From assembly GCF_023501975.1 (NCBI RefSeq), contig NZ_JAMFLH010000001.1, positions 62,001 through 126,000 of the forward strand: DNA of 64,000 nt, written 5' to 3'. A program made the position numbers and the translations under genes. Numbering within the stretch: the first letter of the stretch is position 1; each line of letters starts with the position of its first letter. Of the stretch, positions 16,786 to 59,343 are shown piece by piece. This DNA comes from Altererythrobacter sp. KTW20L. Lineage in GTDB: Bacteria; Pseudomonadota; Alphaproteobacteria; Sphingomonadales; Sphingomonadaceae. The notes beneath the pieces were generated by a model. The model did no database searches. It worked only from the letters and a program-made list of their open reading frames with translations, and had not been told where the DNA came from.

Positions 16786-16874
16786 CGTCACCCCGGGCTT
16801 GACCCGGGGTCCCGCTTGAGTGGTAGCCCGCCGCGAGTCAAAAAGCGGGACCCCGGGTCAAGCCCGGGGTGACG
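16786..16874. repeat. Gene-less inverted pair of palindromic repeat (REPIN-like), copies E and F
   Basis: Two perfect 32-bp inverted copies, E (16786-16817) and F (16843-16874), are separated by 25 bases. Each is itself a palindrome, CCCCGGG-CTTGA-CCCGGGG, with CGTCA at the outer end and CCCGCTT at the inner end. It is a variant of the repeat that flanks the GIY-YIG gene at 57.4 kb, with the same outward-inward orientation. It fills the gap between the acetolactate-synthase-like gene and the aldehyde dehydrogenase gene. Confidence 0.9.
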
Positions 16875-57308: not shown

Positions 57309-57318
57309 TTCAGCAGCA

Positions 57319-57345
57319 GGACCCCGGATCAAGTCCGGGGTGACG
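57319..57345 (-). repeat. Palindromic repeat copy A (27 bp)
   Basis: A perfect inverted copy of the first 27 bases of copy B. It is a 7-bp stem CCCCGGA/TCCGGGG with an ACTTGA-type centre and CGTCA end. It lies just after the SDR stop and may also end its transcript. A and B form a head-to-head pair with 24 bases between them. Confidence 0.9.
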
Positions 57346-57369
57346 TATTTAGATAACTTTGCCTATCAT

Positions 57370-57400
57370 CGTCACCCCGGACTTGATCCGGGGTCCCGCT
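57370..57400 (+). repeat. Palindromic repeat copy B (31 bp)
   Basis: CGTCA, then CCCCGGA-CTTGA-TCCGGGG type palindrome, ending GTCCCGCT. The reverse complement of copy C is identical over all 31 bases. It is directly upstream of the GIY-YIG gene. Translated in frame it would yield the VTPDLIRGP tag often seen in over-long start predictions, which is why the ATG at 57419 is preferred for that gene. Confidence 0.92.
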
Positions 57401-57418
57401 CTACTTGAGGCAAACACA

Positions 57419-57718
57419 ATGGACCGCGAAACCAACGGCGGCTGGGTCTACATCATGGCCGACCGTTATCGCGGCGCGACATATGTCGGGATCACCACTG
57501 ACCTGCCAACCCGCATCACGCAGCACCGCGAAGGAAAAGGCTCGGGCTTTTGCGAGCGGTATGGCCTCAAGCGCCTGGTCTGGGCCGAACACACCGCCCC
57601 GATCGACCTGTGCATCGCGCACGAGAAGCGGGTGAAGCGCTGGCGGCGGGAATGGAAGTTTGCCCTGATCGAGAAGGGCAATCCGGACTGGATCGATTTG
57701 TTCGATCAGCTGGTGTGA
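57419..57718 (+). CDS. Solitary GIY-YIG nuclease-family protein
   Basis: A 99-residue single-domain protein. The signature is split as GWVYIMADR and YVGIT, followed by the conserved Arg in RITQHREGKG, YGLKRLVWAE, a Glu in AHEKRVKRWRREWK and the final NPDWIDLF. Short UPF0213-type GIY-YIG proteins of this kind are common in alphaproteobacteria, often in several copies per genome; activity is mostly untested. It is bracketed at both ends by inverted copies of one palindromic repeat. The ATG at 57419 was chosen because the upstream codons belong to repeat B. Confidence 0.9.
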   Translation: MDRETNGGWVYIMADRYRGATYVGITTDLPTRITQHREGKGSGFCERYGLKRLVWAEHTAPIDLCIAHEKRVKRWRREWKFALIEKGNPDWIDLFDQLV

Positions 57719-57727
57719 GGCGCAACG

Positions 57728-57758
57728 AGCGGGACCCCGGATCAAGTCCGGGGTGACG
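57728..57758 (-). repeat. Palindromic repeat copy C (31 bp)
   Basis: The perfect inverse of copy B, nine bases after the GIY-YIG stop. With copy D it forms a head-to-head pair with 28 bases between them. A 9-bp direct repeat CGCAACGAG lies at its left edge and right of D. Confidence 0.92.
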
Positions 57759-57786
57759 AGGAAGGAAGACTCCCTTTCGAAAAACC

Positions 57787-57815
57787 TCACCCCGGACTTG
57801 ATCCGGGGTCCCGCT
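57787..57815 (+). repeat. Palindromic repeat copy D (29 bp)
   Basis: Matches bases 3-31 of copy B. It supplies the last residues and stop codon of the small gene on the minus strand (ending RDPGSSPG), which suggests that it was inserted into the 3' end of that gene. Confidence 0.9.
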
Positions 57816-58083
57816 GTTCCGCAACGAGGATTGCGCAGAGAATAACGTCGGTAGGCACATCACGAGCGAACGTGTTTACAGTCGTCGGCCCCACCTCCGG
57901 CACGGAAATTTGGAACCAATGTTCGCCATGCTGGTCGCTGATTTCCAGTCGAATACCGTCGAACTCGATGTCAGATGCCCAAAGGTATTTGTACTCGCCC
58001 AGTGTGGTTGTTAGCTTGCCCATACGCCACGCTAAGGCCGCTTCTCTAATAATTGCAAACGGGGACGTTTGCCGACGGTCCAC
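57787..58083 (-). CDS. Small hypothetical protein whose 3' end runs into a repeat
   Basis: About 98 residues, not recognised. SPFAIIREAALAWRMGKL looks like a helix and the following WASDIEFDGIRLEIS and HWFQISVPEVGP like strands, so a small folded domain is likely. The last eight residues come from repeat D, so the original C-terminus is probably lost. Base composition is lower in GC than its neighbours. The start is uncertain: GTG at 58083 or ATG at 58023. It lies downstream of folP on the same strand. Confidence 0.45.
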   Translation of the reverse strand: MDRRQTSPFAIIREAALAWRMGKLTTTLGEYKYLWASDIEFDGIRLEISDQHGEHWFQISVPEVGPTTVNTFARDVPTDVILCAILVAEQRDPGSSPG

Positions 58084-58099
58084 TCCCGCCGCCGTCGCC

Positions 58100-59224
58100 C
58101 TACCCAACCAGCCCCGCAAAGTCCGTCAGCGCCGCGTCCCTCAACCCGCGCCACACGTTCCGCGCCTGCACCGTCTCGAACACGTCGTGCACCCGCAGCA
58201 GGTGATACCCCGCATCCATGCCGCGCAAAGCCAGCGCCAGCGATCCACCCAGGCGCTGATCGGCCGCCGCCTCGTTACTCAAAGCGCCAATCATGCGTTT
58301 GCGGCTGGCACCCAGCAGCAGCGGCTGGCCGAGGGCATGAAACAGCGGCAGGGCATTCATCAGGGCGAGATTGTCGGCCACCGATTTGCCGAAGCCGATG
58401 CCGGGATCGAGGACGATGAGTTCGCGCGCCACACCTGCCGCAATCGCCGCGTCGCGCCGTTCGCGCAGCCAGTCGAACACGTCGAACACCACGGCGGCAT
58501 AGGCGGCGTTGGCGTGGAGGTCTGCGGTTGCCCCGGTGCTCGGCCCCGGGGCGTGCATCAGGATCACCAGCTTGCCGCTGGAAGCGGCGAAATCAAGGCT
58601 GCGCGGATCGTGGCGCAGGGCAGAGACATCGTTGATGATCTCGGCGCCCGCATCGAGCGCGGCCTGCATCACCGCCGGTCGCCGGGTGTCCACGCTGACC
58701 GCCGCGCCCATCTGCGCACAAGTGTGGATGGCGGGGACCACGCGCTTGATCTCGTCCCCCTCCCACACCTCGGCCGCGCCGGGGCGGGTGCTTTCGCCGC
58801 CGATGTCGATGATCGCCGCGCCTGCTTCATGCATGGCGGCGGCCTGGGCCTGCATGGCGGCGGGATCGTCCATGAATTGGCCGCCGTCGGAGAAGCTGTC
58901 GGGCGTGACATTGAGCACGCCCATGACCTGCGGGGTATCGAGCCGGATCGTGCGCGCGCCGCACTGCAGCGGCTGGTGGACCGTACCGATGGCCGCCCAC
59001 TGTTCCTCGCCCTGGGTGGCAAGCTCGCCGCCAATCGCGCTCAGCACGCCCGCCATCTCGCGCGGGCCGCAAATGATGCGTTCGGTCACCGTGCCGCCAT
59101 CGCGCACCACCACGGCAAAGCGGTGCGCCCAGACCATCGATCCGCCCAGCCGCACGGCATCCCCCTCCACCGCCTGCGGGCCGGTGACGAGGGCGATGGG
59201 CTGGAGGTAGATCTGCTGGGTCAT
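58100..59224 (-). CDS. folP: Dihydropteroate synthase with N-terminal extension
   Basis: Folate-pathway enzyme joining p-aminobenzoate to the pterin diphosphate, 374 residues. The core from about residue 97 has VMGVLNVTPDSFSDGG, IIDIGGESTRPG, IINDVSAL, LDPGIGFGKS and GASRKRMIG. The first 95 residues (GTVTERIICGPREMAGVLSA) are an extra domain not found in E. coli FolP (282 residues). The ATG at 59224 has AAGGAT upstream; the ATG at 59242 falls inside a palindromic repeat. Confidence 0.92.
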   Translation of the reverse strand: MTQQIYLQPIALVTGPQAVEGDAVRLGGSMVWAHRFAVVVRDGGTVTERIICGPREMAGVLSAIGGELATQGEEQWAAIGTVHQPLQCGARTIRLDTPQVMGVLNVTPDSFSDGGQFMDDPAAMQAQAAAMHEAGAAIIDIGGESTRPGAAEVWEGDEIKRVVPAIHTCAQMGAAVSVDTRRPAVMQAALDAGAEIINDVSALRHDPRSLDFAASSGKLVILMHAPGPSTGATADLHANAAYAAVVFDVFDWLRERRDAAIAAGVARELIVLDPGIGFGKSVADNLALMNALPLFHALGQPLLLGASRKRMIGALSNEAAADQRLGGSLALALRGMDAGYHLLRVHDVFETVQARNVWRGLRDAALTDFAGLVG

Positions 59225-59236
59225 CGTGTCATCCTT

Positions 59237-59343
59237 CGTCATGCTGAACTCGTTTCAGCATCCATCAAGCCGACTACGCGGAGTGCCGGTCAGATGCTCC
59301 GTGCCTGCCGCGAAATAGACCCTCGAACAAGTTCAGGGTGACG
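59237..59343. repeat. Inverted pair of related palindromes (copies G and H)
   Basis: G (59237-59263) has stem ATGCTGAA/TTCAGCAT, and H (59318-59343) has stem CCCT-GAAC/GTTC-AGGG. Both have CGTCA at the outer end and a CTTG- or CTCG-like centre. They are similar in plan to copies A-F but differ in the stem bases. The pair lies between folP and ccrM. Confidence 0.7.

Follow-up and report, generated by a model that had tools for sequence, protein, structure and literature searches.

The GIY-YIG single-strand nucleases of Neisseria known as Ssn, which are said to have been described together with their cognate repeats, and with homologues elsewhere, by Chenal et al. in Nat Commun in 2025, reportedly act in transformation and not as part of a mobile cassette. 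A class of bacterial repeats, the CGTC-tagged repetitive extragenic palindromes (REPs), was surveyed in 2013 by Di Nocera et al.: these are palindromes of 20–40 bp with a CGTC tag (variants TGTC and CCTC), a stem of 8–9 bp and a loop of 4–5, which form inverted dimers and occur mainly in alpha-proteobacteria, with dRS3 of Neisseria belonging to the class (PMC3733652). The available portions of that survey report no dedicated transposase for CGTC REPs and leave open what makes or moves them (PMC3733652), and the term "GIY" is absent from its main text. Here we analyzed a stretch of 64,000 nucleotides from Altererythrobacter sp. KTW20L (hereafter the window), in which a gene for a small GIY-YIG nuclease lies between inverted REPs of this type, and we name this enzyme family as a candidate answer. 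Our preferred reading, to which we assign a probability of about 0.65, is that gene and repeats form a selfish cassette: the nuclease would cut the cassette's own repeats, and repair at the cut would spread the cassette or remove it.

The gene (57419..57718 on the + strand, from an ATG at 57419 through the stop codon) encodes a stand-alone GIY-YIG nuclease of 99 amino acids, and together with the REP on either side it makes up a cassette of 389 bp (57370..57758, +), a unit that relatives carry at about 380–400 bp. As had been proposed from the sequence beforehand, four copies of one palindrome, spanning 57315–57815, frame this solitary gene, with perfect cores of the form ACCCCGG-N7-CCGGGGT at 57321, 57374, 57734, and 57789. 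The left inner REP, copy B (57370..57400, +; a plus sign marks copies whose CGTC is 5' on the + strand), directs its tag away from the gene, and the right inner REP, copy C (57728..57758, −), which begins 9 bp past the stop codon, is a perfect inverted match to it over 31 bp (36 nt at 97% with the edges included), bearing out the claim of identical 31-bp inverted repeats. Of the outer REPs, copy A (57315..57345, −) faces the tag of copy B with its own across 24 bp, and copy D (57785..57815, +) carries the variant tag CCTC. Two further perfect cores, at 16790 and 16850, belong to copies E (16786..16816, +) and F (16844..16874, −), a geneless unit of 89 bp (16786–16874) whose REPs are oriented as in B and C, again as predicted; A-B, C-D, and E-F each form an inverted dimer. 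With up to two mismatches allowed, the core matched 6 times in the window, a number reached in none of 100 shuffles (mean 0.76; largest 3), and these shuffles, along with the control windows described below, ruled out chance palindromes. The entire source genome (3.09 Mb, 35 contigs) holds 10 perfect copies, 4 of which surround this gene.

The window palindromes have the unpaired CGTC (or TGTC, CCTC) end, the stem of 8–9 bp and the loop of 4–5 that define CGTC REPs, and both dispersal and inverted dimers were found in the source genome. They deviate from the consensus in their second stem pair, which is C-G, and in their tail, TCCCGCT; in the survey text available, the first two stem pairs are A-T "almost invariably" and the tail is CCA in "most" CGTC REPs, neither being absolute (PMC3733652). 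These two features excepted, the palindromes fit the class in sequence. The original prediction had known of no formal description linking the repeat to GIY-YIG proteins; the repeat itself is described, as CGTC REPs for which the authors, in the text available, found no associated transposase (PMC3733652), while REPs of the window type flank GIY-YIG genes. Among the literature matches listed, most of them given in part, we saw none connecting GIY-YIG proteins with CGTC REPs or with REPs in general.

We then asked how often an inverted pair of one repeat, called where the two flanks matched each other in inverted orientation with a best score of at least 16, accompanies GIY-YIG genes, using same-shaped windows elsewhere in the same loci as controls. 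Such a pair flanked 59 of 74 loci in the family (4 from the source genome plus 30 and 40 among the matches listed; 149 family genomes searched) and none of 422 controls. Likewise, in named genomes of several phyla, retrieved by a protein-only search (80 loci, 3 of which were dropped for short flanks; kinship ignored), a pair was present at 58 of 77 loci and in 0 of 353 controls. Lowering the cut-off to 14 gave 62/74 against 5/422 and 59/77 against 1/353, respectively. By their record titles, the pair-bearing named loci come from Proteobacteria, Planctomycetes, Chloroflexi, Nitrospira, and Elusimicrobia, many of them metagenome bins. Enrichment beside GIY-YIG genes in relatives, the result on which the prediction had been staked beforehand, was therefore obtained, and the pairing of nuclease gene with palindromes is well supported. 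The CGTC tags pointed outwards at 40 of the 58 pair-bearing named loci (inwards 7, both 1, unread 10) and at 24 of 34 loci in one clade of the family set (inwards 2, unread 8); in Neisseria gonorrhoeae the copies closest to the gene have inward tags and are part of a cluster of repeats of this kind. In the source genome, two more GIY-YIG genes that stand alone (L001 and L002) are each enclosed by an inverted pair of the same orientation made of a different palindrome (GGATCCTGAAACAAGTTCAGGATGACG and related sequences). That genome's fourth match to GIY-YIG, a 673-aa open frame that by its size we take to be UvrC-like, has no flanking repeats, and a UvrC-like gene was rejected on this ground.

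Repeat abundance was related to gene presence as well, with exceptions both ways. Strict-pattern repeats away from the gene occurred in 12 of 18 family genomes with a window-type gene (11 of 18 when repeats beside the deleted or truncated copies of genomes G071 and G021 are excluded) vs. 14 of 131 without one (Fisher p = 6e-7), with means of 3.06 and 0.38 per genome; "window-type" here denotes a 159-bit threshold set post hoc, and the repeats close to genes were taken out manually. Loci differ in their repeat sequence, and these differences follow those of the protein (Mantel r = 0.63; n = 70; 0/2000 permutations), also within each of two clades (r = 0.33, n = 36; r = 0.61, n = 34; 0/2000 permutations each). 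These 70 loci are the pair-bearing members of an 87-gene set, the 34 of one clade being those used for the tag reading; kinship was ignored, and the set is biased by the inclusion of genus loci retrieved with a repeat-containing query. The correlation shows that protein and repeat travel jointly and on its own is no proof of recognition; taking the findings together, nuclease and flanking REP are very probably a cognate pair. Loop class was best predicted by window positions 21, 76, 17, 74, and 18 (91 loci, 7 of 98 having been left out; kinship ignored), making residues 17, 18, 21, 74, and 76 candidate specificity positions.

Searching 40 genomes of the genus with the window locus revealed the cassette in G185, G183, and G154, where the matches (905/908 to 1296/1297 of the query) stopped no more than 3 bp from the outer ends of the REPs, which lie at 908 and 1296, so that the edge of copy B, exactly or to within 3 bp, is where cassette homology begins in all three. 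The 3-kb flanks in these genomes are unlike the window's, with one site common to G185 and G154 and G183 carrying its cassette elsewhere. G071 holds nine copies, which are 96.5–100% identical over the columns they share. Four of them are 391 bp long and keep the 99-aa frame intact, a fifth (390 bp) has a shorter frame, and the remaining four carry internal deletions that leave two at 254 bp and two at 344 bp. Since each deleted form occurs twice, at different loci, deleted cassettes have also been copied. Sets of similar copies (83–99.8% identity) were present in G135 (four), G139 (five), G021 (three), and G111 (three), including some with in-frame stops in G139 and two in G021 that match the protein profile partially. 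The multicopy cassettes L142-L151, L254-L258, and L259-L261 lie within or next to a further sequence that carries TGTCCGC and CCCGACAG motifs. A motif from the right-hand flank was found nine times in G071, on every occasion next to a cassette.

The comparison of strains for empty sites that had been suggested at the outset yielded filled and unfilled alleles in Sphingobium, Sinorhizobium, and Azospirillum. On Sphingobium megaplasmids, the site lies between fnrL and a gene for a response regulator; 7 records matched throughout this interval and 4 had no cassette, and we inspected four of the seven filled sequences (one frame-shifted, L141) and all four unfilled ones. Two of the latter (TomTYG64, and TomTYG74 with a changed stem) contain, at the position of the cassette, a single cognate palindrome composed of the left outer and the right outer half. 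In the gltA/lpxB interval of Sinorhizobium meliloti Ak57, an internally deleted cassette adjoins an intact one. At the place of the deleted copy, S. meliloti K101 has one lone palindrome that bears both outer ends, and the sequence after it resembles what follows the Ak57 copy; the intact cassette is absent from K101. The deleted Ak57 cassette (L129, about 2680–2840) resembles a miniature derivative. The sufB/sufC interval of Azospirillum lipoferum 4B holds the gene with four REPs, and 11 other Azospirillum records match both sides of this site in two pieces, with the gene absent. Among the 136 strict-pattern repeats found in 29 of the 149 family genomes, outer ends on both sides occurred in 2 (G136 and G019) and inner ends on both sides in 0. 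At the window locus itself, the neighbors stand 22 bp apart without the gene in G170, their matches overlap in G171, and other open reading frames (ORFs) lie between them in G153, the exact junctions being unreadable because these sequences are too diverged; for G071, one locus tried in its only genus mate had no usable ortholog and gave no usable unfilled site. Copies at different loci within one genome, combined with presence and absence at given sites, indicate that the cassette is likely mobile. The half-palindrome junctions fit copying into a palindromic site or loss from one, in either direction.

The cassette would accordingly be a REPIN-like unit (in the manner of paired REPs) of about 390 bp in which the nuclease recognizes its own flanking palindrome as its site. 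When single-stranded, for example at a replication fork, a REP could fold into a hairpin that the nuclease would nick, and repair from another cassette copy, matched via the half-palindromes, would bring the gene into the REP site in a homing-like manner. In the reverse event, the two outer half-palindromes would be joined, the gene lost, and one symmetric palindrome left behind, whereas geneless pairs such as E-F and the internally deleted copies would represent non-autonomous derivatives. GIY-YIG enzymes hydrolyze DNA and, unlike a RAYT (REP-associated tyrosine transposase), are not expected to hold the cut end covalently, for which reason nicking followed by host repair is the favored route, although we put forward nick-and-repair homing only tentatively. 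The original prediction that the protein recognizes or mobilizes the repeat is supported as a reading: multicopy sets and filled and unfilled sites speak for mobility of the cassette, and we infer binding and cutting of the REPs and a nuclease that drives the movement. The boldest form of the idea, an autonomous mobile element of about 390 bp whose nuclease homes into its own CGTC REP hairpins, leaves symmetric palindromes and REPIN-like relics, and belongs to a cassette family that explains the origin of CGTC REPs across bacteria, falls somewhat short of even odds in our judgment; to our knowledge, it would be smaller than any known insertion sequence.

Several observations weigh against the selfish cassette and bear on its rivals. 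The pair was lacking at 15 of the 74 family loci (one being the 673-aa frame) and at 19 of the 77 named loci; G103 has 19 repeats and no window-type gene, and G002, G111, and G146 have the gene without a strict-pattern repeat. The other two unfilled Sphingobium sites had no cognate palindrome, and the three unfilled Azospirillum sites that we inspected had no palindrome of any kind. Tracking of repeat and protein is equally expected from mere joint travel. Visual inspection of the copies, for which the unit edges are uncertain, showed no target duplication next to them, and some element types make none. Finally, within-genome copies in the five multicopy genomes share homology beyond the REPs, mostly about 20–60 bp and up to 164 bp in G139, so that the moving unit is either longer than REP-gene-REP or prefers, or sits in, another repeat. 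This shared sequence, pieces of which are also found cassette-free in G139 and G071, is what would be expected if the REPs were ordinary palindromes moved by unrelated transposases or recombination with the small gene as a passenger. We consider such hitchhiking quite improbable, as the enzyme family stays constant while the repeat changes with it, the association extends across several phyla, and PF01797, the RAYT-type transposase family and the only transposase family searched for, had no match in any of the five genomes tested, of which one is 77% complete, a result that also led us to reject a RAYT as the mobiliser.

A pair that serves the host is a stronger competitor, though still an unlikely one. 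Here the nuclease would act on chromosomal REPs, processing hairpins or controlling incoming single-stranded DNA as Ssn reportedly does, the flanking REPs would be its sites or regulators, and mobility would be secondary or due to other machinery. The N. gonorrhoeae homologue sitting among many such repeats, the repeats away from the gene in 12 of 18 gene-bearing family genomes, and the cassettes at orthologous sites (G185/G154; L153/L154) would all suit a host function; nine near-identical copies in G071, deleted ones included, multicopy sets in four more genomes, presence and absence between related plasmids, and units that between genomes are bounded by the repeats are at odds with it. That the flanking palindromes act simply as bidirectional terminators or mRNA stabilizers, with no recognition by the protein, might be read from the start of copy C 9 bp past the stop codon, but the upstream copy is similarly close and inverted, 0 of 775 control windows were alike, and the unit is likely mobile, leaving this explanation very little room. 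We retain the selfish cassette as the preferred reading.

The product of the window ORF scored 43.9 bits against Pfam GIY-YIG (curated cut-off 22.6). Nucleases of this family share conserved Tyr, Tyr, Arg, Glu, and Asn residues, and here Y11, Y22, R32, H36, E69, and N88 are conserved, R32 being invariant or nearly so and the others invariant (alignment A2, 8 rows: Y11, Y22, R32, E69, and N88 invariant; A3, 10 rows: R32 nearly invariant, the rest invariant). The closest solved sequence is UPF0213 protein BH0048 (PDB 1zg2; E = 6.9e-5), itself labeled hypothetical and without a function, and an NCBIfam search returned nothing at 0.001. A defence or phage protein was rejected, PADLOC and PHROGs giving just weak matches (E = 0.005 to 0.05). 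Two of the genes in Sphingobium records (L126 and L128) carry the annotation hypothetical protein or excinuclease ABC subunit C. Read as its longest ORF (57359–57718), the window gene has a TTG start ahead of copy B, so that the REP is translated as VTPDLIRGPA, and REP-derived protein ends such as HPELVSGS and RHPGLDPGS recur in ORFs of related loci; such ends may be a cause of wrong gene starts. Further along, a small ORF (57787–58119) lies between copy D and a folP-like gene, a place for which G170 and G171 leave no room between the neighbors, and a degenerate palindrome at 59317–59343, beyond the ORF read as folP, has 6 mismatches to the query and is nearer to the second type.

The pairing recurs in many bacteria with other palindromes, and the copies in relatives indicate movement of the repeat-gene-repeat unit, which makes the enzyme a good candidate for the partner that a widespread repeat class has been missing. 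If true, a very small single-domain nuclease, and no transposase, stands behind a large class of bacterial repeats. Now that an enzyme family, a unit with edges, pairs of repeat and protein, residues that may set specificity, and alleles that have or lack the gene have been named, the question is ready for the bench.

Among known systems, the REP/REPIN-RAYT elements resemble this locus in that inverted REPs enclose an enzyme gene, REP pairs without a gene occur elsewhere, and the enzymes are repeat-specific; going by the available portions of the survey, they differ in that a RAYT is an HUH tyrosine transposase with a GTAG tag on its repeats, whereas the window has a GIY-YIG nuclease and a CGTC tag (PMC3733652). 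With a tag of CGTC and not GTAG and PF01797 in none of the five genomes, the architectural comparison drawn by the original prediction is apt as an analogy. GIY-YIG homing endonucleases of the I-TevI type reportedly share the spread through cutting and repair that we propose, but the window cassette lacks an intron, its site is palindromic, and its enzyme consists of one small domain. Ssn, as it is said to be defined, is likewise a small GIY-YIG protein beside a cognate palindrome of the CGTC/dRS3 type, the repeats being named NTS, and this arrangement was found here. We found an N. gonorrhoeae homologue 42% identical to the window protein and, in another record, one 69% identical to the first protein of A1, and we infer that these are Ssn itself; one N. 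gonorrhoeae record (NZ_CP119140.1, L125; 2.17 Mb) is filed as a plasmid and is chromosome-like in size. The Neisseria arrangement differs in that the copies nearest the gene have inward tags and belong to a large cluster. If the Ssn report covers these repeats, the pairing would be known already, and the mobile cassette, its deleted copies, and the half-palindrome sites would be the new part.
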